From Devosia sp. 66-14 (GTDB lineage Bacteria; Pseudomonadota; Alphaproteobacteria; Rhizobiales; Devosiaceae): DNA of 64,000 bases. Shown piece by piece: positions 15,049 through 26,312 of this stretch. The DNA lies in the NCBI GenBank assembly GCA_001899085.1, contig MKVB01000001.1, positions 490,100 to 554,099 on the forward strand, written 5' to 3'. Made by a program: the position numbers and the translations under genes. Every line of letters starts with the position of its first letter. Within the stretch, counting starts at the first letter, position 1. The notes under the pieces are model-generated. The model saw only the letters and a program-made list of their open reading frames with translations. It searched no databases and had not been told where the DNA came from.

Positions 15049-18000
15049 TCACTCGACGCGGGGAATTTCCTTGGCCCGGTACTCGAACATCCGGCGGAAG
15101 GCGCCGGGGACCAGCGCCGACATCGGGTTGATCTTGAAATCCGGCTTGTCGAGCGGACCGCGCACCGCGAAGGTCACGCCGAACAATCCTTCGCCGTCGC
15201 GCCCCGCCAGCGGTCCGAGCAGCTTGGAGAACGCGTTGTTGAGCCCGAACAGCGGTACATAGGTGCCGGTGAGGTCGTACTGGCGCTTGTCGGTGTAGAT
15301 GAAACCGCGCGCCGTGCCGCCGACCGTCGCGCCGGCCAGCACCGCGTCGGTGATTTCCACCCGGTCGCTGCGTCGCACGAACTCCGCCTCGGCGCTCTTG
15401 AACTCGAGCTTGTTGGAGCGTGCGATCATCTGCCGGGATTCCGAGTGGTTGCCCAGGATCTGCGCGACGTTCCCCTCGTTGACGAAGGCGAAGTTGCGCA
15501 GCGAGAACTGCCCGACGTCGATCTTCTGGTCCTTGACCGTCTCAACCACCAGGCTGCCCGCCCCACCCTCGACATTGGGGTAGACGTTCATCAGCCGCAG
15601 CAGCGTCCCCAGATCGTTGAACGCGACCGACATCACCTTGCCGTCCGGCGTCGGGTTGGTGGTGACCGACACGCTGCGGTCGCCGCCCAGATTGGCCTGC
15701 AGGTTCACCCGCTGCAGATCCGCGCCGCGCAGCACCAGGTCGAGGTTCACGTTGAACGCCGTGGTCTTGTAGAAGCCCAGCGCCCGCTTCAGCTCGAGAT
15801 CCACGGCAATGGTCTGGTTGTTCACCGCTGTCGCCTGCGGCCCGCCGGTCGAATCGCCCGAGAGGCTGAAGAAGCGCTGCAGCATCGGCTTGAGATCGAG
15901 CTGATCACCGCGCAGCCGCACCTGGTAGCCGTTGCGGATCGGGGTCAGCGAGATCTGCGCCTGGTCGCCCGGGCTGAGCGCGAACGACGTGAACTCGGCC
16001 GATTGCAGCCCCTCTTTCAGGTCGAAATCGAGGCTGCCCTCGAGCTTCACATCGCCGAACCCCAGATCGAGATCGTTGATGGTAACGGCGTCGCCGGCCA
16101 TCTTGATCACCGCCTGAGCCGCGCCCTTGCTCCCCGCCGCCTTGCTGATGCCCAGATCCTTGACGTTGACGCTCGCGGCGCTGAGGTCGGCGGCCACCTG
16201 GAAGCTGCCATCCTCGAGCGGCTTTACCGAGATGGCCAGCGGACCGTTGAGGACGCCGGAACTATCGAAGCCGAACTTCTTGAACGCGTCGGAATCCACC
16301 TTCGCCGTCAGCACCACATCGGGTTTCTTCGGATCGAGCGTCCCCATCGCCGAAATCTGCGCCGGCACGCCATCGAGTTCGGTCGTGCCGCCGACATTGA
16401 AGCCCGCCTGCGTCACCCGGAACTCCAGCTGTCCCTTGCCGAGCGTATGCCCTTCGATCGGCGATGCAGTCTCGAAGTCCTGCAGCGTACCGTTGATGAC
16501 ATAGTCCATGCTGCGCGGCTGGTTGGTCTTCTTGTCGGTGACGATGGTCGCCACCAGCCCGAGCGACACCTGACCCTTCAGGATGTCGAGGTCGATGGGC
16601 AGCGTAGCCTGTTTCAGCGCATCCGGCTGGTTCGTCTTGACCCAGTCGATCAGCGCCGGAATACCGCCGGAGAGGTCGCCGGAGATTTCGTATACGGCCT
16701 CGGTGTCGCTGTTCGAGCCGATGATGAAGCCGGCATTGGCGATCGAGACATTGCCCTTGGGCGTCGGGATCGTCGCACCGTCGCCGGAGATCTGGATGTC
16801 GTTGTCCTTGAGGCTGAGCTTCATCTCGCCTTCGATGGTGATCGGCTCCATCGTCTCGAGCGCCTTGATCTTCACGCCGACGCCGACGATGTCGATCGAC
16901 ATCGCATTCTTGGGCATCGGCTTGTTCTCCCCGGGCTCGCCGAGCGAACCGATCGGGAAGTCGTAGCGCATCGTGGATTTCTTGATCCGCCCGCCCACCA
17001 CGTTCTTGACGAACCAGTCGCGCGACTCGCTCGCGAGGAAGGCCGGCCACAGCCGCTTCAGGTCATCGGCCGACAGGCCGTCGCCGGCGATGTTCATCTC
17101 GAAGCCGGTGCCGCGGCGCACCATGTCGATACGGCCGGTCGATACCAGCTGGCTGCCGTCGGCTTTCTTGGCCTCGAAGCGGTCGATGCCGGTGGCGCCG
17201 TAGAGCGGCGCCGACCAGCCCTGGAAATTGACCTCGGTGAACGGCGCTTCCGGCATCCCCTGTTCGTCGGCAATGGCGACATCGCGCGCCGCGACCTTCA
17301 TGCCGACGATCGGTCCGTAGAGCGGGTCGAGCCCGAGCTTGAACACGCCGCTGATATAGCCCGTGCTGCCGGCGACGCTGACCTGCATCTCACCCATGGT
17401 GAACTGGCCGATGGCGGGGTCCCAGACCACCTCGGCGATCGACGTCGCAATCGGGAAGTACTGTCCGTTGACCCGCACATCCATTCCGGTCAGGTCGATA
17501 TGGAACAGCCCGTCGGTGATCTTCTGTGCATTGGTGAAGCCGACATCGATCGACACCGACGCCGTGCCGACCACCGCGATCGAGGTCTCCTGTTCGCCGA
17601 CAAAGGGAGCAAAGGCCCCTGGATCGAGGTTGGTGATCGATGCCTTGAGGCGCGCGCCGCCATCGTCGGTCTCGACCCATTCGAGAATGCCGTTCATCAC
17701 CGATCCGCCGATCCCGGCGGAGAAGTTGCCCGACGCCGACTTGCCGTCGGCATTGGGCGCGATGTCGATGTTGATCTCGGTGAAGTGCCTGAGCACGCCA
17801 TAGAGGGCGTCGTTCATGTCGAGCGCGCCGCGCTTGATCACCAGGCGGGAGAAATTGCCGAGCTTAGCCTGCTGCACGATGCCCGCGATGCCCTTGGCCG
17901 CGGCTTCGAGGTTGTAGACCAGCCAGTCATTGTCGGATCGGATGCCCAGGTTGGTGTCGGGCACCTGCCCCTTCACATCGACGCCTCCCGCCGACAGGTT

Positions 18001-18513
18001 CACTTCGGGGAACTGGTCCTGCCCCTCGATGACCCGCACGGTGCGGCCGCCATCCGGTTCGTCCACATACTCGAACTTGGCGAGACGCGGCCCGAACAGG
18101 TCCTGGTTCACCTGCAAGTGCGGCCCGACGATGGTCACGGTGGCGCCCGGCTGGCCCACCAGGGCCCTGAGCGGCGAGAACCCGACCTCCAGCGCGTCGA
18201 CACTCACCGTGCCGCCGGTCTTCACGTCGGTGAAGGTCACCGGCTTGAACTGGATCACCGGCCAGACGAAGCCCTCGAGCGCCAGCGCCATGTCGCCCAG
18301 CTCGAGCTTGCTGCCCGGCGGCATCGAACCGAGGACCAGGTTGCGGACCTGCGAGCTGACGAAGGGCAGCGGAATCGGCGTGACCAGCAGCACCGCGTAC
18401 ATGACGACGAGCAGAATGACGGGCGCAGCGACTGCCGCCGCTGCGATCCTACCCAGGATGCGCCATGCCGAGCGCTTGCGGAGCTGGGAGCCAGGGGCTG
18501 GAGTAGGTTTCAC
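15049..18513 (-). CDS. Large AsmA/YhdP-like (DUF3971) envelope protein
   Basis: This 1154-residue protein starts with GTG 18513. It has one N-terminal membrane anchor (about residues 23-45) and then a very long repetitive beta-strand region typical of DUF3971/AsmA-like proteins, ending in the conserved VEITDAVLAGATVGGTARG and GTYVPLFGLNNAFSKLLGPL segment. Such proteins (YhdP, TamB, AsmA group) span the periplasm and carry lipids to the outer membrane. It is divergent from the peroxiredoxin gene. The YhdP-type assignment rests on the AsmA-like C-terminus and size. Confidence 0.85.
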   Translation of the reverse strand: MKPTPAPGSQLRKRSAWRILGRIAAAAVAAPVILLVVMYAVLLVTPIPLPFVSSQVRNLVLGSMPPGSKLELGDMALALEGFVWPVIQFKPVTFTDVKTGGTVSVDALEVGFSPLRALVGQPGATVTIVGPHLQVNQDLFGPRLAKFEYVDEPDGGRTVRVIEGQDQFPEVNLSAGGVDVKGQVPDTNLGIRSDNDWLVYNLEAAAKGIAGIVQQAKLGNFSRLVIKRGALDMNDALYGVLRHFTEINIDIAPNADGKSASGNFSAGIGGSVMNGILEWVETDDGGARLKASITNLDPGAFAPFVGEQETSIAVVGTASVSIDVGFTNAQKITDGLFHIDLTGMDVRVNGQYFPIATSIAEVVWDPAIGQFTMGEMQVSVAGSTGYISGVFKLGLDPLYGPIVGMKVAARDVAIADEQGMPEAPFTEVNFQGWSAPLYGATGIDRFEAKKADGSQLVSTGRIDMVRRGTGFEMNIAGDGLSADDLKRLWPAFLASESRDWFVKNVVGGRIKKSTMRYDFPIGSLGEPGENKPMPKNAMSIDIVGVGVKIKALETMEPITIEGEMKLSLKDNDIQISGDGATIPTPKGNVSIANAGFIIGSNSDTEAVYEISGDLSGGIPALIDWVKTNQPDALKQATLPIDLDILKGQVSLGLVATIVTDKKTNQPRSMDYVINGTLQDFETASPIEGHTLGKGQLEFRVTQAGFNVGGTTELDGVPAQISAMGTLDPKKPDVVLTAKVDSDAFKKFGFDSSGVLNGPLAISVKPLEDGSFQVAADLSAASVNVKDLGISKAAGSKGAAQAVIKMAGDAVTINDLDLGFGDVKLEGSLDFDLKEGLQSAEFTSFALSPGDQAQISLTPIRNGYQVRLRGDQLDLKPMLQRFFSLSGDSTGGPQATAVNNQTIAVDLELKRALGFYKTTAFNVNLDLVLRGADLQRVNLQANLGGDRSVSVTTNPTPDGKVMSVAFNDLGTLLRLMNVYPNVEGGAGSLVVETVKDQKIDVGQFSLRNFAFVNEGNVAQILGNHSESRQMIARSNKLEFKSAEAEFVRRSDRVEITDAVLAGATVGGTARGFIYTDKRQYDLTGTYVPLFGLNNAFSKLLGPLAGRDGEGLFGVTFAVRGPLDKPDFKINPMSALVPGAFRRMFEYRAKEIPRVE

Positions 18514-19268: not shown

Positions 19269-20459
19269 GTGGTGCGTGCGAAATCGAGTACGGTTCAGCC
19301 GGTTTCCAGGATGTTTGGTGCGCCGAGGAAGAAGTCGCCTCGCGTCCCCGGTGCAGGCATCCGGCCAGGCTATCTCTACGGCGCCTTTGCTGTGCTGTTC
19401 GGCACCAACGTCCTCACCCTCGTCGCCTTCCTCATGGCGCCTGACATCTCGGCCCTGCTGAATGGCCAGAACGACGTTGTCGTTTCGGCCTACGAAGACC
19501 GTATCGCCCAGCTGCGCGTCGAGGTCGACCGCCTGCACTCCCGCCAGTTTGCCCAGACCGGCGACATCAACCTGCAGCTGCAGGAACTGACCCAGCAGCA
19601 GGAAGTACTGCTCGAGCAGCACCAGTTGGTGAAGCAGCTCGCCCAGAAGGCGGCCGAGCTTGGTATCGAGACTGCCGCGGCGCCCTCGGTCGACGAAGAT
19701 GACGATGTCGCGCCCGTCGCTGCCGTGACCCCGGCAGCCACTGGCAGCGCTGGCGACCTTGCCGAAGTCGGCGCCTCGATGACCCGGATGATGGACGATA
19801 GCCGCATGGCCCTCGCCGCCTTGTCCGTGTCGGCCACCGAATCGACCGACACCATTCTCGATGTGCTCGGCGGCCTGGGCATCAAGCCCAGGATGCCGGA
19901 TGGTCTGTCCGACGCCGTTGGCGGCCCCTACCAGCCGCCGGTCGAGGGGGCGGATGCCAGCGGCATCGTCGATGACGCCAACGACGTCTACCTCGCTTTG
20001 GCGCGCTTCAAGGCCGCGCGCAGCGCCATCGATCTGGCGCCGATACACAAACCGATGGGATCGCTTAACCGGATCAGTTCGACCTTCGGCAACCGCAAGG
20101 ATCCGTTCACCGGCGGCCGTGCCTTTCACGCCGGCCTCGACTTTCCGGCCCCCAAGGGCACCACGGTGCTCAGCGCCGGCTATGGCAAGGTCACCTTCGT
20201 CGGCGAGAAATCCGGCTATGGCAACCTGGTCGAGATCACCCATCTCACCGGCCTCGTGACCCGCTACGGCCACCTGAGCGCTTTCCTCGTCAAGGAAGGC
20301 CAGATCGTCAACACCGGCACCCCGATCGCCAAGGTCGGCTCTACCGGCCGTTCCACCGGCCCGCACCTGCATTTCGAGGTGCGCAGCAAGGACGTGGCGG
20401 TCGACCCCGGCAAGTACCTTGCAGCCGGCAAGCGCCTGGCGCGCTTCCTCGGCGCCTAG
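19269..20459 (+). CDS. M23 (LytM) family metallopeptidase, membrane anchored
   Basis: The 396-residue protein begins at a GTG preceded by GGAG (5 nt); ATG 19311 is an alternative without a good ribosome site. A transmembrane segment (about 34-56) is followed by a coiled coil rich in Gln and Glu (about 70-115), a linker, and a C-terminal LytM domain with FHAGLDFPAPKGT, TRYGHLSAFLVKEGQ and STGRSTGPHLHFEV, so the zinc ligands are intact. It probably cuts, or regulates cutting of, peptidoglycan during division, as in related EnvC/NlpD-like proteins. Confidence 0.92.
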   Translation: MVRAKSSTVQPVSRMFGAPRKKSPRVPGAGIRPGYLYGAFAVLFGTNVLTLVAFLMAPDISALLNGQNDVVVSAYEDRIAQLRVEVDRLHSRQFAQTGDINLQLQELTQQQEVLLEQHQLVKQLAQKAAELGIETAAAPSVDEDDDVAPVAAVTPAATGSAGDLAEVGASMTRMMDDSRMALAALSVSATESTDTILDVLGGLGIKPRMPDGLSDAVGGPYQPPVEGADASGIVDDANDVYLALARFKAARSAIDLAPIHKPMGSLNRISSTFGNRKDPFTGGRAFHAGLDFPAPKGTTVLSAGYGKVTFVGEKSGYGNLVEITHLTGLVTRYGHLSAFLVKEGQIVNTGTPIAKVGSTGRSTGPHLHFEVRSKDVAVDPGKYLAAGKRLARFLGA

Positions 20460-20584: not shown

Positions 20585-23500
20585 ATGCTGATGACCTCAG
20601 ACATTCCGACGATGCTGCGGCTGCACCGGGCGATGTTTCTCGCCCGCGAGATCGACCGCGTGGAACAAGACCTGGTCAAGCAGGGCCTTGCGCATTTCCA
20701 TGTTTCTGGCGCCGGCCACGAGTCGACCGCGCTGATCGCCGACTATCTCGGCCAGCAGGATTGGCTGCACCTGCACTATCGTGACAAGGCGCTGCTTCTG
20801 GCGCGGGGCCTGCCGCTGGTCGAATTCTTCCGCAGCCTGCTGGCCACCGGGCCCTCGCACTCTGCCGGCCGACAGATGAGCGCGCATTACTCGGCGCGCG
20901 AGCTGAACGTCGCCTCGATGGTCGGCCCGGTCGGCAACAATGCGTTGCATGCCGTGGGCAACGCCCAGGCGGTCAAGTTTCACCCCGATTCCCCGGTGGT
21001 GATCTGCTGCGTCGGGGACGGCACGACTCAGCAGGGCGAGTTCCTCGAGGCGGTCGGCGAAGCGGTGCGCACCGGTGCACCGGTGGTCTTCGTCATCCAG
21101 AACAATAACTGGGCCATCTCGACCAAGACGCCCGGCCAGACCTTCTTCGACCTGCCCACCGGCCCCGCCGACAGTTTCCTCGGGCTGCCGATCCGCCGCG
21201 TCGATGGCGTCGATCTCGCGGCAACCCGCACCGCGTTCGAATCGGCGGTGACCCATACCCGCGCCACCCGCGGCCCGTCGCTGCTGCTGATGGAACTGGA
21301 GCGGCTGTCCGATCACACCAATGCCGACGACCAGGCGCTCTATCGCGCGGCCGACGAGCTGAAATCCGGCAAGAGCCGCGACCCGCTCGAAGCCATCCGC
21401 CAGTCGCTGCGTGAGTCGCAGATGGGCGACCAGGCGCTTGCGCAGCTGGAAACCAGCCTGATCGCCGAAGTGGCTGCTGCCGTCGTCGAAGCGCGCGGCG
21501 AAGCGGTGCCGCAGACCGCCGGCGAGGCCAAGGCGCCCTACCCGGCCGAGTTCGCCCACGCCAAGGAATATCGCGGCGACGCCAAGGCCCCCAGCCTGAC
21601 TATGCGCGAGGCGCTCAACCGGGTGCTGCGCGACCAGCTTCAGGCCAACCGCGACGTGCATCTGCTCGGCCAGGATATCGAGGATCCCAAAGGCGACGTA
21701 TTCGGCGTCACCAAGGGCCTGTCGACGGCCTTCCCAGGCCGGGTCCGCAACGCCCCCCTGTCGGAGTCGACCATTGTCGGCACCTCGATCGGTCGTGCGC
21801 TGACCGGCCAGCGGCCGGTGGCCTTCATCCAGTTTGCCGATTTCCTGCCGCTCGGCTTCAACCAGATCATCTCCGAGCTCGGCTCGATGTACTGGCGCAC
21901 CGACGGCACCTGGCAGGCGCCGGTGATCCTGATGGTGAGCTGCGGCGGCTACAAGGCCGGCCTCGGGCCGTTCCACGCCCAGACGCTCGAATCGATCCTC
22001 GCCCATGTGCCGGGCATCGATGTGGTGATGCCGTCGAGCGCCGGCGATGCGGCCGGCCTGCTCAACGCCGCCTTCCAGAGCAAGCGGCCCACAGTGTTCC
22101 TCTACCCCAAGAGCGGCCTCAACCTCTCGGATCGCCGCACCTCGGACGACACGGCGAGGCAGTTCGTGGCGCCCGGCAAGGCGCGCACGGTGCGCCAGGG
22201 CAACGATCTGACCCTCGTCACCTGGGGCAATCCGCTGACCCAGTCACTGCTCGCCGCCGAGACGCTGTCCGGCGCCGGTGCGGAGATCGACCTCATCGAC
22301 CTGCGCTCGATCTCGCCCTGGGACGAGGATGCGGTGCTGCGTTCGGTTCGCCGCACCAAGCGCCTGCTGGTCGTGCACGAGGACAATCACACGGCCGGCT
22401 TCGGCGCCGAAGTCATGGCGACGGTCATGGAGCAGGCCGGCCTTCCGGTCAGCGCCAAGCGCGTCACCCGCGACGACATCCACGTGCCGTTCCAGTTCGA
22501 GCGCCAGATCGACACCCTGCCCTCCTACCGCCGCATCATGGAAGCGGCAGCCGCGCTGCTCGAGTTCGATCTCGCGTGGGAGGCGCCCAAGGCTGATGCC
22601 GGCCCCGCCGCCATTACCGCCATCGGCTCCGGCCCGGCCGACGACGAGGTCGAGGTGGTCGAGCTGCTGGTGAAGCCTGGCGACATGATCAGGACCGGCG
22701 ATCTGGTTGCCGTCGTCGAGGCGACCAAGGCCGCCGTCGACGTCCAGGCCACCGTCACCGGCAAGGTGCTGTCGATCCCGGTCGAGCCCAAGCAGAAGAT
22801 CGCCGTCGGCGCGCCGCTGATGTTCGTCGAAGCCGACGCCTCGGTGGCGCGGCAGCAGACCACCGTTACCGCCGAGCGCATCGACAGGGCCATCCTGAAG
22901 CGCCGCAGCGCCCAGCAGGCTGCCCCTGTCGCCATCGGCCGGGCAGACGTTCCGGTTGGTGTGTCCGGCATCGCCGGCGTGACCGGCGCGCGCAAGGTTC
23001 AGAACGCCGACCTCAAGGGCAACTGGCAGACCCGCGATGCCGGCGATATCGTCAAGCTCACCGGCATCGAAAGCCGTCGCTGGGTGCAGCCGGGCGAGAC
23101 GGTGTTCTCGCTTGCTGTGTCGGCCACGCAGAAGCTGCTCGACGAGCAGCAGCTCGAGATCGGCGACATCGACCTGGTGATCGCCGCCACCGGCACGCCC
23201 GATGTGATCACGCCGTCGCTCGCCTGCCGCGTCGCCGATGCCGTAAGCACGGCCGGCCGCGTCAGCCTGCCGGCCTATGACATCAATGCCGCCTGCTCGG
23301 GCTATCTGTACGCCCTCGCGCAGGCTCGCGACTATGTCACCAATCACCCCGCTGCGCGGGTGCTGGTGGTGACATCCGAAGTGCTGTCGCCGCTGCTGGA
23401 CCAGAACGATTTCAACACCGCGGTGCTGTTCGCCGACGCGGCGACCGCGTCGCTGGTGCAGGGCCCGGGCCACGAGCAGCCGACCCTCTTCACCTTCGCC

Positions 23501-23908
23501 CAGCCGACCATCGCCGGCGCCCCGGAATCGGGCGAGCTGCTGAGCGTGCCGCGGGCCGGCGAGGGCTATATCAAGATGAACGGTCGCGAGGTCTTCGCCG
23601 ACGCCGTTCGCGCCATGTCGGCGACGCTGACCTCGGCCTGCGCGGCCGAAGGCATCAGCATGGACGATATCGACCTGATGGTGCCGCACCAGGCCAACCA
23701 GCGCATCATCGACGCCATCGCCCGCCGCTCGGGCCGCCCGGCGCACTCGATCATCCGTAACCTCGGCAACACCAGTTCCTCGACCATCCCGCTGGCGCTG
23801 ATGGACGCGCTGCCGACCCGGAAGCCCGGCGACCGGCTCGGCCTCGTCGCCTTTGGCGGCGGCATCACTTACGCGGCGGCAATCGCGACGGTCGGATCGG
23901 GGCGCTAG
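20585..23908 (+). CDS. Four-domain fusion: 2-oxoacid dehydrogenase E1-alpha, E1-beta, lipoyl domain and KAS III
   Basis: One continuous 1107-residue frame. Residues about 8-330 are an E1-alpha (GRQMSAHYS; thiamine pyrophosphate motif from GDG 144-146 to NNNW 173-176). Residues about 335-660 are an E1-beta (DIEDPKGDVFGVTKGL, GFNQIISELG, LGPFHAQTLE), most like branched-chain oxoacid dehydrogenases. Residues 686-752 are a lipoyl domain with the modifiable lysine in EATKAAVD (Lys715). Residues about 790-1107 are a FabH-like ketosynthase with AACSGYLYA (Cys904), PHQANQR (His1035) and LGNTSSST (Asn1062), so the triad is complete. No E2 acyltransferase or E3 is nearby. I infer that an acyl group made from a 2-oxoacid may pass via the lipoyl arm to the ketosynthase, giving a beta-keto or acyloin-type product. 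Confidence 0.88.
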   Translation: MLMTSDIPTMLRLHRAMFLAREIDRVEQDLVKQGLAHFHVSGAGHESTALIADYLGQQDWLHLHYRDKALLLARGLPLVEFFRSLLATGPSHSAGRQMSAHYSARELNVASMVGPVGNNALHAVGNAQAVKFHPDSPVVICCVGDGTTQQGEFLEAVGEAVRTGAPVVFVIQNNNWAISTKTPGQTFFDLPTGPADSFLGLPIRRVDGVDLAATRTAFESAVTHTRATRGPSLLLMELERLSDHTNADDQALYRAADELKSGKSRDPLEAIRQSLRESQMGDQALAQLETSLIAEVAAAVVEARGEAVPQTAGEAKAPYPAEFAHAKEYRGDAKAPSLTMREALNRVLRDQLQANRDVHLLGQDIEDPKGDVFGVTKGLSTAFPGRVRNAPLSESTIVGTSIGRALTGQRPVAFIQFADFLPLGFNQIISELGSMYWRTDGTWQAPVILMVSCGGYKAGLGPFHAQTLESILAHVPGIDVVMPSSAGDAAGLLNAAFQSKRPTVFLYPKSGLNLSDRRTSDDTARQFVAPGKARTVRQGNDLTLVTWGNPLTQSLLAAETLSGAGAEIDLIDLRSISPWDEDAVLRSVRRTKRLLVVHEDNHTAGFGAEVMATVMEQAGLPVSAKRVTRDDIHVPFQFERQIDTLPSYRRIMEAAAALLEFDLAWEAPKADAGPAAITAIGSGPADDEVEVVELLVKPGDMIRTGDLVAVVEATKAAVDVQATVTGKVLSIPVEPKQKIAVGAPLMFVEADASVARQQTTVTAERIDRAILKRRSAQQAAPVAIGRADVPVGVSGIAGVTGARKVQNADLKGNWQTRDAGDIVKLTGIESRRWVQPGETVFSLAVSATQKLLDEQQLEIGDIDLVIAATGTPDVITPSLACRVADAVSTAGRVSLPAYDINAACSGYLYALAQARDYVTNHPAARVLVVTSEVLSPLLDQNDFNTAVLFADAATASLVQGPGHEQPTLFTFAQPTIAGAPESGELLSVPRAGEGYIKMNGREVFADAVRAMSATLTSACAAEGISMDDIDLMVPHQANQRIIDAIARRSGRPAHSIIRNLGNTSSSTIPLALMDALPTRKPGDRLGLVAFGGGITYAAAIATVGSGR

Positions 23909-24989
23909 CCGGCGGAGACAGCCCCTGCAGCAGGCCGACCAGCTCGGCCTGACGGTGCATGCCGGTCTTTCCGAACACCGCCTGGACCTGATTGCGCACC
24001 GTCGCGGCGCTCGCCCCGGTCGTGGCGGCGATCTGCCCGATGGTCATGCCGCCGCCGAGCGCGCGGGCGATCCGGGTTTCGGCCGGGGTAAGGTCGAACA
24101 ATCCCTGGATGACGGCTATGTCCGGCAGCTCTCGTGGGGTGACCGGGGTCAGCAGCAGCACCGCCGCCGCACCAGTGAACACTTCCCGCGCCGACGCGCG
24201 GATCGGCAGCAGATGGGCCACCAGCGGCACGGTCCCCTCGCTGGCCGGGATTGGAATCGATCGCGCCGGCCCTTGGTGCAGCCCTGCTTCAGCCGCCTCC
24301 AGTGCGGCAACGAGCATCTGGTCGGCGCCGTCATTGGCGAACCCGAGCCGCTGCGGGCGCGACTGCACCACGGCCGGCGTCAAACTCTCGAGCAGGCCAT
24401 TGCTGGCGATCGCCGCGCCGCGTGGCCCGAGCACCGCAGCCGGGATCCCGACCATTTCGAGTGCCGAGACGGTGCCCTCGGCGCGCTCGAAGGCGATCCG
24501 CGCCGACATCAGCGCCGCCCGCGCCAGGTGTGGGCGGAGCCGATCCAGCCGCTCCACCTCTGCCCGCTCCACCGGCCCATCCTCGAGGCGGCGCTCGCCG
24601 TGAAAGATCAGCAGGTCGCCGGTTGGCACCTTGATCCCGGTCGCGACGCCCCAGCCATAGCCGCGCGGCACGAAGAACTCGCGCCGGATCGGGTCGGCTT
24701 CCCACTCCTCGCGGGTGAAGACATCGAGGTCGGTGACGAAGCCCTGATGATCGTAAGCCAGTAGCCGTGCAGTGCGATCGTCGCGGCCGGGATAGCCGGC
24801 TTCGAAATACCCCTTCGACATCTCATGGAGGCTGCCCGATGCGGTCCAGTGCACCGCCTGCTCCCGCACCGCGAACAGCAATCCGCCACTGACTTTGCCC
24901 ACCCGGGCGAGCTCTTCGAGCACATCCGGCCAGAGGTCGGGAATGGCTCCGGCCTCATAGATCCTGTCGATGAGGTCGTCATCCTCCAT
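23865..24989 (-). CDS. LuxR-type transcriptional regulator
   Basis: The 374-residue protein has a C-terminal LuxR/FixJ helix-turn-helix (LTPAETRIARALGGGMTIGQ, then TGASAATVRNQVQAVFGKTG). The N-terminal 290 residues look like a PAS/GAF-type sensor region without a clear ligand motif; there is no phosphoacceptor receiver domain. Its 3' end overlaps the convergent fusion gene by 44 bases, so their transcripts are antisense there. It may regulate that gene, but this is only suggested by position. Confidence 0.88.
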   Translation of the reverse strand: MEDDDLIDRIYEAGAIPDLWPDVLEELARVGKVSGGLLFAVREQAVHWTASGSLHEMSKGYFEAGYPGRDDRTARLLAYDHQGFVTDLDVFTREEWEADPIRREFFVPRGYGWGVATGIKVPTGDLLIFHGERRLEDGPVERAEVERLDRLRPHLARAALMSARIAFERAEGTVSALEMVGIPAAVLGPRGAAIASNGLLESLTPAVVQSRPQRLGFANDGADQMLVAALEAAEAGLHQGPARSIPIPASEGTVPLVAHLLPIRASAREVFTGAAAVLLLTPVTPRELPDIAVIQGLFDLTPAETRIARALGGGMTIGQIAATTGASAATVRNQVQAVFGKTGMHRQAELVGLLQGLSPPASAPIRPSRLPPRK

Positions 24990-25183: not shown

Positions 25184-26312
25184 TTACTCGGCGTCCGTTA
25201 CCGTGTCGGCATAGCCGGTGACCCGTGCCGCGAGGGACGCTTCCATGAAGTCGTCGAGGTCGCCATCGAGCACGCCGGACGTGTTCGAGGTTTCGTGGCC
25301 GGTCCGCAGGTCCTTGACCATCTGGTAGGGCTGCAGCACGTAGCTGCGGATCTGGTGCCCCCAGCCGACATCCGTCTTGGCGGCGGATTCGGCATTGGCC
25401 GCTTCCTCGCGCTTCTGCAGTTCAACTTCGTACAGCCGCGCCTTCAGCATCGCCATGGCAGTGGCGCGGTTCTTGTGCTGGCTGCGCTCCTGCTGGCAGG
25501 CCACCACGATGCCCGACGGCACGTGGGTGATGCGGATGGCCGAGTCGGTGGTGTTGACGTGCTGCCCACCCGCGCCGGACGAACGATAGGTATCGACCTT
25601 CAGGTCGCTCTCGTTGATCTCGATATTGATGGCGTCGTCGACCACCGGATAGACCCAGGCGCTCGAAAAGCTGGTGTGCCGGCGCGCGGCGCTGTCATAG
25701 GGCGAGATGCGGACCAGCCGGTGCACGCCGCTCTCGGTCTTCAGCCAGCCATAGGCGTTGTGGCCTGAAACCTTGATCGTCGCCGACTTGATCCCGGCTT
25801 CTTCGCCGTCATGGATTTCCATCGTCTCGACCTTGAACTTCCGCCGCTCCGCCCAGCGCGTGTACATGCGCAACAGGATGTTGGCCCAGTCCTGACTCTC
25901 GGTGCCGCCGGCGCCCGAGTGAATCTCGAGATAGCAGTCATTGCCGTCGGCTTCGCCCGACAGCAGCGTCTCGACCTGCGCGGAGCGCGCTTCCTTCAGC
26001 GTCTCCTGCAGCGCCTGCTCGGCTTCCTTGACGACGTCCGCGTCGCCTTCCGCCTCGCCCATCTCGATGAGCTCGGTGTTGTCGCGAACGGAAGCTTCAA
26101 ACGACTTCACCGCCTTGACCTGCACGTCCAGCTCGTCACGCTTCTGCATGATCGGCCGGGCCTTGTCGGGGTCGGCCCAGAAGTCGGGATGCTCGGTGCG
26201 AGCGGTCAGGTCGTCGAGGCGGGCTTCAGCTGTATCCCAGTCAAAGATGCCTCCTCAGCAGGCTTACGACCTGCTCGATTTCAGCGATGACCTTGGTGAT
26301 TTCGGCGCGCAT
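25184..26312 (-). CDS. prfB: Peptide chain release factor 2, with programmed +1 frameshift
   Basis: RF2 releases peptides at UGA and UAA. Reading starts at ATG 26312 (GAGGA upstream), runs 23 codons to an in-frame UGA at 26243-26241, and continues in the +1 frame from 26242 for 352 residues, giving 375 in total. The GGQ catalytic motif is in [17 protein letters not shown]. The codon-recognition tripeptide, SPF in E. coli, reads SPY here ([14 protein letters not shown]). A single-frame annotation would miss the N-terminus and begin wrongly near 26149. Confidence 0.95.
26241..26255 (-). promoter_or_regulatory. prfB: Programmed +1 ribosomal frameshift site of prfB
   Basis: On the coding strand the site reads AGGAGG CAT CTT TGA C. 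A Shine-Dalgarno-like AGGAGG lies three bases before the slippery CUU, followed by the in-frame UGA, with the same spacing as in the E. coli prfB site. Slow UGA decoding when RF2 is scarce lets the ribosome shift +1, so the protein regulates its own synthesis. Confidence 0.93.

Follow-up and report, generated by a model that had tools for sequence, protein, structure and literature searches.

The window, by which we mean the whole 64,000-nucleotide stretch of Devosia DNA analysed here, contains a gene that runs without a break over 1107 codons from its ATG to its stop (20585-23908, plus strand) and joins E1-alpha, E1-beta, lipoyl and KAS III (FabH-like) domains, in that order, in one chain. 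Each domain scores above its Pfam curated cut-off (Table 1), and the source assembly has the identical frame with zero internal stops. A first-pass annotation made from the sequence alone had proposed this frame and domain order and had placed GDG144-146, Asn174, Lys715, Cys904, His1035 and Asn1062; all of this was borne out, each residue lying where it had been placed. An AlphaFold2 model of the protein has a mean pLDDT of 87.9, and stretches of at least three residues fall below 50 only at 1-5, 776-787, 986-991 and 995-997.

Table 1. Features of the fusion gene. Positions are in the numbering of the window and residues in that of the Devosia fusion protein; fractions are counts among fusion proteins.
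Feature	Position	Strand	Residues	Remark
Whole fusion gene	20585..23908	+	1107 aa	ATG to stop, stop included
E1-alpha domain (PF00676, E1_dh)	20627..21505	+	15-307	Pfam, above curated cut-off
E1-beta pyrimidine-binding domain (PF02779, Transket_pyr)	21596..22120	+	338-512	Pfam
E1-beta C-terminal domain (PF02780, Transketolase_C)	22175..22501	+	531-639	Pfam
Lipoyl domain (PF00364, Biotin_lipoyl)	22643..22822	+	687-746	Pfam, above curated cut-off
Lipoyl Lys	22727-22729	+	Lys715	in E-A-T-K-A; invariant, 82/82
Linker, lipoyl to ketosynthase	22832..22954	+	750-790	
KAS III (FabH-like) domain	22958..23887	+	792-1101	
FabH Trp32 position	23045..23047	+	Asp821	CoA adenine stacking lost (alignment)
Ketosynthase triad Cys	23294-23296	+	Cys904	82/82
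FabH Arg151 position	23411..23413	+	Phe943	CoA adenine stacking lost (alignment)
Ketosynthase triad His	23687-23689	+	His1035	82/82
Ketosynthase triad Asn	23768-23770	+	Asn1062	82/82

A conserved fusion of E1, lipoyl arm and ketosynthase

The first-pass annotation had proposed a search for homologues of the same architecture and had named a frameshift or assembly join at 22560-22980 as the finding that would overturn its reading. Such homologues occur, rarely, across several bacterial phyla, with loci in Devosia, Rhizobium, Rhodobacter-like bacteria, Planctomycetes, Verrucomicrobia and beta- and gammaproteobacteria. One open frame, defined as a query match that starts before residue 60 and ends beyond residue 1050, is kept in 79 of the 80 loci fetched from other genomes, two of them trimmed by contig ends (L010 starts at residue 27 and L081 stops at residue 1069); the sole exception is a MAG (L042) whose frame is broken near residue 833. 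No frameshift or join was seen at 22560-22980 in the gene's own frame or in the comparison of the 80 loci, and an assembly join is ruled out because the other genomes repeat the single frame.

Residue counts were made on 82 fusion proteins, all distinct in sequence. Eleven checked catalytic or docking residues (six in E1, the lipoyl Lys, the ketosynthase Cys, His and Asn, and an Arg at the ACP-docking position) are identical in every one of them. The E1 half has the ThDP motif (GDG144-146 with Asn174) and catalytic residues of 2-oxoacid dehydrogenases, His64, Asp145, Asn174 and His244 being invariant in E1-alpha and Glu394 and His464 in E1-beta. It shares families, fold and ThDP motif with the E1s of Thermus thermophilus (1um9) and human BCKDH (1dtw); in contrast to branched-chain and pyruvate dehydrogenase E1s, the fusion has alpha, beta, lipoyl and ketosynthase parts in one chain and lacks an E2, and a Pfam search of the chain gave no E2 acyltransferase domain (PF00198). 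The predicted lipoyl domain likewise agrees with a 2-oxoacid dehydrogenase in its invariant Lys. We rejected biotin as the group on Lys715, since neither neighbour of this residue is Met in any of the 82 sequences. The linker that follows measures 34-63 residues across the family; the motif P-x-L-x-[RK] lies in or beside it in 50/82 relatives, and the window protein has I-L-K-R-R there.

Within the KAS III domain, ACP_syn_III (PF08545, residues 898-965) and ACP_syn_III_C (PF08541, residues 1019-1101) score above their cut-offs, and Foldseek comparison with FabH structures gave TM-scores, by target, of up to 0.91 among the matches listed. The triad and the fold are those of KAS III/FabH. The domain falls short of the NCBIfam fabH model TIGR00747 (219.1 bits against a cut-off of 292.1) and passes the broader model NF006829 for beta-ketoacyl-ACP synthase 3 (258 against 249). 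Solved enzymes (1ub7, 8vd9, 1hn9) share with the fusion the fold, the Cys-His-Asn triad and the ACP-docking Arg, a residue whose docking role we assume; they differ from it in their CoA adenine-stacking residues and in that the fusion ketosynthase is joined to its own acyl supplier. At the FabH Lys214 position, which we take to face the ACP and to correspond to residue 1005 of the fusion, Lys occurs in 1/82 fusions against 8/10 stand-alone KAS III, and this loss counts against an unchanged ACP contact.

In FabH the CoA adenine is sandwiched between Trp32 and Arg151, according to PMC4606726. Both are present in solved FabH chains (5/5 alignments among the matches listed). In the fusions the Trp32 position holds Asp (48), Glu (31), Gly (2) or Met (1), with Trp in 0/82 against 9/10 stand-alone KAS III, and the Arg151 position holds Phe (73), Pro (5), Leu (2) or Tyr (2), with Arg in 0/82 against 6/10. 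By alignment, then, the sandwich for an acyl-CoA primer is missing from all 82 fusions, which lends indirect support to the CoA-free route that the first-pass annotation had suggested. The loss is not exclusive to fusions, because four of the ten stand-alone enzymes also lack the Arg and one (L107) lacks the Trp. Of the 82 fusions, 35 retain Arg36, which in FabH contacts the pantetheine. It is possible that the fusion ketosynthase binds acyl-CoA weakly.

Relatives and genomic context

In the E1 tree the ketosynthase fusions form one group (100/100), which is joined by a set of E1-lipoyl-E2 proteins (96/88) and then by Streptomyces E1s (98/94); in the ketosynthase tree a 100/100 branch separates them from the 10 stand-alone KAS III. 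The E1-lipoyl-E2 architecture was confirmed by Pfam in four of the five members of the nearest set. These four Planctomycete proteins (L092, L119, L120, L121) have an E1ab-lipoyl chain like that of the fusion (L092 is 38% identical over residues 21-749), but end in an E2 acyltransferase (PF00198) where the fusion ends in KAS III. Since the fusion's nearest relatives by E1 carry E1, lipoyl and E2 in one chain, we conclude that the ketosynthase occupies the place of the E2, and homology thus supports the earlier proposal that it stands in for a missing E2.

Actinobacterial OdhA, unlike the fusion, is a 2-oxoglutarate enzyme without a ketosynthase. It resembles the fusion in combining an E1 with an acyl-transfer step in a single polypeptide, oxidative decarboxylation and succinyl transfer occurring in one chain as described in PMC10415282. 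The Streptomyces E1ab genes lie beside PKS/NRPS genes starting lipoyl-E2-ACP-KS in both loci examined (L097, L098). In these streptogramin-like clusters a lipoyl-borne acyl group is apparently loaded on a carrier for a ketosynthase, judging by domain order; unlike in the fusion, E1 has a gene of its own, the lipoyl and ketosynthase domains are separated by E2 and ACP, and the ketosynthase is type I. A description of this loading order was not found in the streptogramin literature consulted, where a review (PMC6963833) states that in the case of pristinamycin isobutyryl-CoA is loaded at SnaE1.

Inspection of neighbouring genes, also proposed by the first-pass annotation, was mostly uninformative. 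Comparison of neighbour clusters across loci found no common operon partner: most recurrences stay within a set of close relatives, namely Rhizobium, Devosia, a group of eight Pirellulaceae loci and a group of three loci of gammaproteobacterial type with topoisomerase I, and only a broad ABC-transporter cluster and a DUF1501 cluster (c13 and c53) recur between distant loci. A Pfam tally covered 71 of 85 neighbouring proteins at 25 chosen loci, skipping neighbours above 650 aa and setting aside 14 short, partial or doubtful proteins (those of L045 among them); no family appeared in more than 3 of the 71, and the ACP family matched just one. What the inspection did yield are ACP genes beside the fusion in two Planctomycete loci, at its 3' end in L072 and upstream of it in L045, where a nearby gene also carries PF00198. 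These two neighbourhoods hint at ACP as the partner carrier. All nine genomes examined encode E3 (dihydrolipoamide dehydrogenase, above cut-off) and LipA, and several have other E1 genes. The idea that the fusion substitutes for a missing FabH was rejected, because stand-alone KAS III is also present in 9/9.

A proposed route from 2-oxo acid to 3-oxoacyl-ACP

In textbook fatty-acid initiation the acyl-CoA is supplied by a separate enzyme. Here E1, lipoyl arm and chain-starting ketosynthase are in one protein, and therefore the usual CoA step could be skipped. We favour, at a probability of roughly 60%, a self-sufficient initiating ketosynthase, one whose acyl primer is made within the same protein. 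More specifically, the E1 half with ThDP would decarboxylate a 2-oxo acid, as its family and invariant residues suggest, and place the acyl group on the Lys715 lipoyl arm of the same chain, which would hand the thioester directly to Cys904. The ketosynthase would then condense it with malonyl-ACP, releasing CO2 and 3-oxoacyl-ACP, as the triad and the kept Arg suggest, and the cell's ordinary E3 would presumably reoxidise the dihydrolipoyl group. The net reaction would be 2-oxo acid + NAD+ + malonyl-ACP to 3-oxoacyl-ACP + 2 CO2 + NADH, with no primer-CoA thioester; the primer, we tentatively suggest, may be bigger than acetyl and perhaps branched-chain. Direct transfer from lipoyl to ketosynthase is favoured because the adenine-stacking pair is absent and the ACP-docking Arg kept in all 82 fusions, because the closest E1 relatives carry an E2 where the ketosynthase sits, and because the next relatives adjoin the Streptomyces lines described above.

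The position equivalent to E2, the Streptomyces order in which E2 seems to play a relay role, and the ACP genes in L072 and L045 would also suit a ketosynthase that merely relays the acyl group, taking it from the lipoyl arm and leaving it on the thiol of a carrier protein, to give acyl-ACP with no condensation. We consider this unlikely: in FabH the His and Asn serve malonyl decarboxylation, and a pure transferase would let them drift more freely, yet the triad is complete in 82/82. Less likely still is that the two halves communicate through free acyl-CoA that the E2 of a different protein would make, so that the fusion secures co-expression only. The ordinary E3, the additional E1 genes and the partial retention of Arg36 agree with such a route, but both adenine-stacking positions are lost, the ketosynthase occupies the E2 position, and each of the two trees puts the fusions in a single group, neither half having lost any of its checked catalytic residues.

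The earlier annotation had left the product as beta-ketoacyl or acyloin-type; the former fits the triad and the docking Arg, and the latter found no support. An acyloin or diketone synthase, in which a ThDP-bound acyl carbanion attacks an acyl group on the ketosynthase or lipoyl, draws on the carboligation possible for ThDP enzymes of this superfamily, but is very improbable given the invariance of the six E1 residues and lipoyl Lys, a triad of the decarboxylative condensing type, and no supporting context in the neighbourhoods inspected. Weakest is a dedicated cofactor step such as BioZ-like synthesis of 3-oxopimeloyl-ACP for biotin from 2-oxoadipate, for although such synthases (9j6e, 9w96) are among the KAS III matches, both come far behind FabH (E 2.5e-32 for 9j6e against 1.1e-47 for 1ub7), no biotin gene was recognised in an unsystematic look by eye at the neighbours inspected, and we know of no E1 alpha/beta enzyme that accepts dicarboxylic 2-oxo acids.

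Implications for chain initiation

We found no paper on an E1-lipoyl-KAS III fusion in the open-licence literature, a scope outside which subscription papers mostly fall. On balance we also think it somewhat more likely than not that the proteins are a conserved enzyme family for starting fatty-acid or polyketide chains on 2-oxo acids, in which lipoyl rather than CoA hands the primer to the ketosynthase, and that KAS III replaced E2 in the course of its evolution. If the proposed route is correct, a single chain that both makes and condenses an acyl group would represent an additional means of supplying a ketosynthase, priming would be independent of the acyl-CoA pool, and protein engineers would have a one-gene primer module. 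In addition, the family suggests that E2 and KAS III can take each other's place on the same E1-lipoyl platform, and it draws attention to the order lipoyl-E2-ACP by which streptogramin-like assembly lines appear to be loaded.

Architecture and occurrence of the fusion

The window fusion joins E1-alpha, E1-beta, a lipoyl domain and a KAS III ketosynthase (KS) in one open reading frame that is intact in its own 5.7 Mb assembly, bearing out the uninterrupted frame of 1107 codons described in the first-pass annotation. In Pfam, scores above cut-off were obtained for E1_dh, Transket_pyr, Transketolase_C, Biotin_lipoyl and the two KAS III models. Among the 25 NCBIfam matches listed of 40, no model spanned the whole chain; the best was the broad 'beta-ketoacyl-ACP synthase 3' model, narrowly above cut-off, and the score for the fabH model TIGR00747 fell below that model's cut-off. 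AlphaFold2, given an alignment of 39 family members, returned a well-folded model (mean pLDDT 87.9, pTM 0.69) whose E1-beta part was matched by Foldseek to the branched-chain E1 of Thermus and whose C-terminal part was matched to FabH.

The proposed search for homologues of the same architecture was run on species genomes and gave 114 relatives, of which the best 80 were taken. A single open frame carries the chain in 79 of these 80 loci (contig ends cut 2 of the 79), and the frameshift or assembly join cautioned against earlier was not seen; in one MAG locus (L042) the frame is broken near residue 833. Identity to the window protein runs from 42% (L083) to 97% (L010), the nearest locus among the matches listed being Devosia insulae (97%). 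According to record titles, hosts among the best 80 of 114 include Devosia, Rhizobium (tropici/rhizogenes/lusitanum group), Tabrizicola, Rhodobacter, Pirellulaceae and other Planctomycetes, Verrucomicrobia, beta- and gammaproteobacterial MAGs, Cysteiniphilum and Facilibium. The fusion is rare among the genomes sampled: 13/121 in its own family, every one in its own genus (in 1 of the 13 only residues 43-834 are in frame), 1/397 among other genomes drawn from its phylum, and 3/246 in the phylum of the Planctomycete fusion L072, counting L072's own genome. Five more matches in this last sample are related E1s, four of them shown as E1-lipoyl-E2. This scattered distribution suggests gene transfer or wide loss.

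Across 82 different fusion proteins (duplicate rows L001, the window, and L090, equal to L072, taken out), E1 residues His64, Asp145, Asn174, His244, Glu394 and His464, the lipoyl Lys715, the KS triad Cys904, His1035 and Asn1062, and Arg1040 are invariant, and Asn1038 is kept in 81. Because these key residues are constant at identities down to 42%, selection appears to act on all three activities. The stretch from His244 to Tyr-Arg254 is 11 residues long in 82/82, and the E1-lipoyl-E2 and Streptomyces members of the E1 tree share this length. A short P-x-L-x-[RK] motif in the linker between lipoyl and KS domains (50/82) might serve E3 or the KS as a docking site.

CoA and carrier contacts of the ketosynthase

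The KS domain was compared with 10 stand-alone KAS III proteins, one from its own genome and nine from eight other fusion-bearing genomes. In FabH, the CoA adenine is sandwiched by Trp32 and Arg151, and Arg36 and two Asn contact the pantetheine (PMC4606726). In our alignment the Trp32 position is Asp or Glu (Trp in 0/82 fusions versus 9/10 stand-alone proteins) and the Arg151 position mostly Phe (Arg in 0/82 versus 6/10). Solved FabH chains carry Trp at the first and Arg at the second position in 5/5 printed alignments. The Arg36 position retains Arg in 35/82. We take W42 and R161 of M. tuberculosis FabH to be the counterparts of Trp32 and Arg151; PDB titles name mutants of W42 plus R161 (2aj9) and R46 plus R161 (2ahb).

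The ACP-docking position (Arg249 in E. coli, Arg1040 here) is Arg in 82/82, but the position of Lys214, a second ACP-side residue (residue 1005 here), is Lys in only 1/82 versus 8/10 stand-alone proteins. In E. coli FabH the size of the primer is limited by Phe87; the corresponding position holds Thr in 66/82 and Ser in 14/82, which would be in line with a primer larger than acetyl. Since Trp32 and Arg151 are lost and Arg1040 is invariant, the domain seems no longer to bind the nucleotide end of CoA but to retain the main ACP contact. Such an end is lacking in a dihydrolipoyl thioester, so a lipoyl-fed KS could look like this.

Relation to E1-lipoyl-E2 chains

For an E1 tree, the E1 part of 41 non-redundant fusions was combined with 16 further E1s; the tree has a midpoint root and a long-branched outgroup. 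The fusions form a single group (support 100/100), which under this root is joined first by five proteins from Planctomycetes (96/88) and next by three E1ab proteins from Streptomyces (98/94). By Pfam, four of the five are single E1-lipoyl-E2 chains (L092, L119, L120, L121; the last three are the same genes as L093, L094, L096), and the fifth, L095, has an open frame that departs from the lipoyl-E2 part. At about 1100 aa, such a chain combines all parts of a 2-oxoacid dehydrogenase except E3 in a single polypeptide. Over residues 21-749, lipoyl included, L092 and the window fusion share 38% identity, but L092 ends in E2 where the fusion has KAS III. The earlier proposal of a ketosynthase in place of E2 thus holds as homology of position. 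In the KS tree the fusions again form a single group (100/100) against the 10 stand-alone KAS III. Both trees would be best explained if KAS III had replaced E2 once in a chain of E1 and lipoyl; the reverse, KAS III replaced by E2, is conceivable under another root.

In Streptomyces, the E1ab genes of L097 and L098 are each followed immediately by a PKS/NRPS gene, and the encoded protein starts with lipoyl, E2 catalytic domain, ACP and KS; this count covers those two of the three, the third record (L122) being unannotated. By gene content both clusters look streptogramin-like. According to a review (PMC6963833), pristinamycin II starts from isobutyryl-CoA at SnaE1. The domain order suggests that, in these relatives, transfer of an acyl group from lipoyl to ACP could bypass CoA (CoA-free starter loading), and may point to branched-chain 2-oxo acids as substrates of the E1 family. 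These functions are split between adjacent genes in Streptomyces, whereas the fusion holds E1, lipoyl and KS in one chain.

Gene neighbourhood and proposed role

Inspection of the fusion's neighbours, as had been advised, found no gene common across phyla (neighbour clusters and Pfam tally). Lipid-related neighbours, selected here for that relevance while most neighbours have no lipid link, include a fatty-acid hydroxylase gene that lies upstream of the fusion in Rhizobium (25 loci in cluster c2; Pfam on L019), an enoyl-ACP-reductase-like gene (L050), a desaturase (L084), a FabF-like gene (L112), an ACP gene overlapping the fusion's 3' end (L072), and, upstream of the fusion in L045, genes for an AMP-ligase, an ACP, an E2-like and an LPG-synthase-like protein. 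They fit a carrier-bound product, without naming it. In 8 loci a microcompartment-domain (BMC) protein is encoded directly downstream, and a shell connection is possible there.

Features of the window and of related loci
Feature	Location	Strand	Remarks
ORF, 1154 aa	window 15049-18513	-	no Pfam or NCBIfam match; relatives few genes from fusion in 9 related loci (cluster c23)
M23 peptidase gene	window 19269-20459		one side of fusion gene
Fusion gene	window 20585-23908	+	one ORF, 1107 aa
Linker	window 22832-22954		P-x-L-x-[RK] in 50 of 82 fusions; I-L-K-R-R instead in window fusion
Regulator gene, LuxR-like end	window 23865-24989	opposite to fusion	GerE match below cut-off
prfB	window 25184-26149	opposite to fusion
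Second E1ab-lipoyl fusion, own genome	L002:1381-3831		816 aa; no E2, no KS; 27% identical to window fusion; next gene reads by eye like D-2-hydroxyacid dehydrogenase
Partial copy of E1-alpha start	L084:6159-6689 (G125:C82)		just upstream of complete fusion gene; 60% identical to window residues 11-187
Protein with two BMC domains	L060:13341-13961		and 7 more Pirellulaceae-type loci; cluster c31; Pfam on L060
E1-alpha/E1-beta/lipoyl/E2 chains, Planctomycetes	L092:1435-4647; L119:3810-7238; L120:3789-7262; L121:5827-9189
E1ab gene and PKS/NRPS starting lipoyl-E2-ACP-KS	L097:14929-22362; L098:14878-22307		Streptomyces plasmid clusters

Judging from sequence, the fusion most likely (probability about 0.62) would convert a 2-oxo acid and malonyl-ACP, by way of lipoylation, acyl transfer and condensation, to a 3-oxoacyl-ACP, with no CoA thioester of the primer. 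The main rival, an acyl relay without condensation, is improbable. Dihydrolipoamide dehydrogenase and lipoyl synthase both scored over cut-off in 9/9 fusion-bearing genomes examined. A stand-alone KAS III is likewise present in each of these nine genomes, so the fusion would be an additional initiator with a special purpose.
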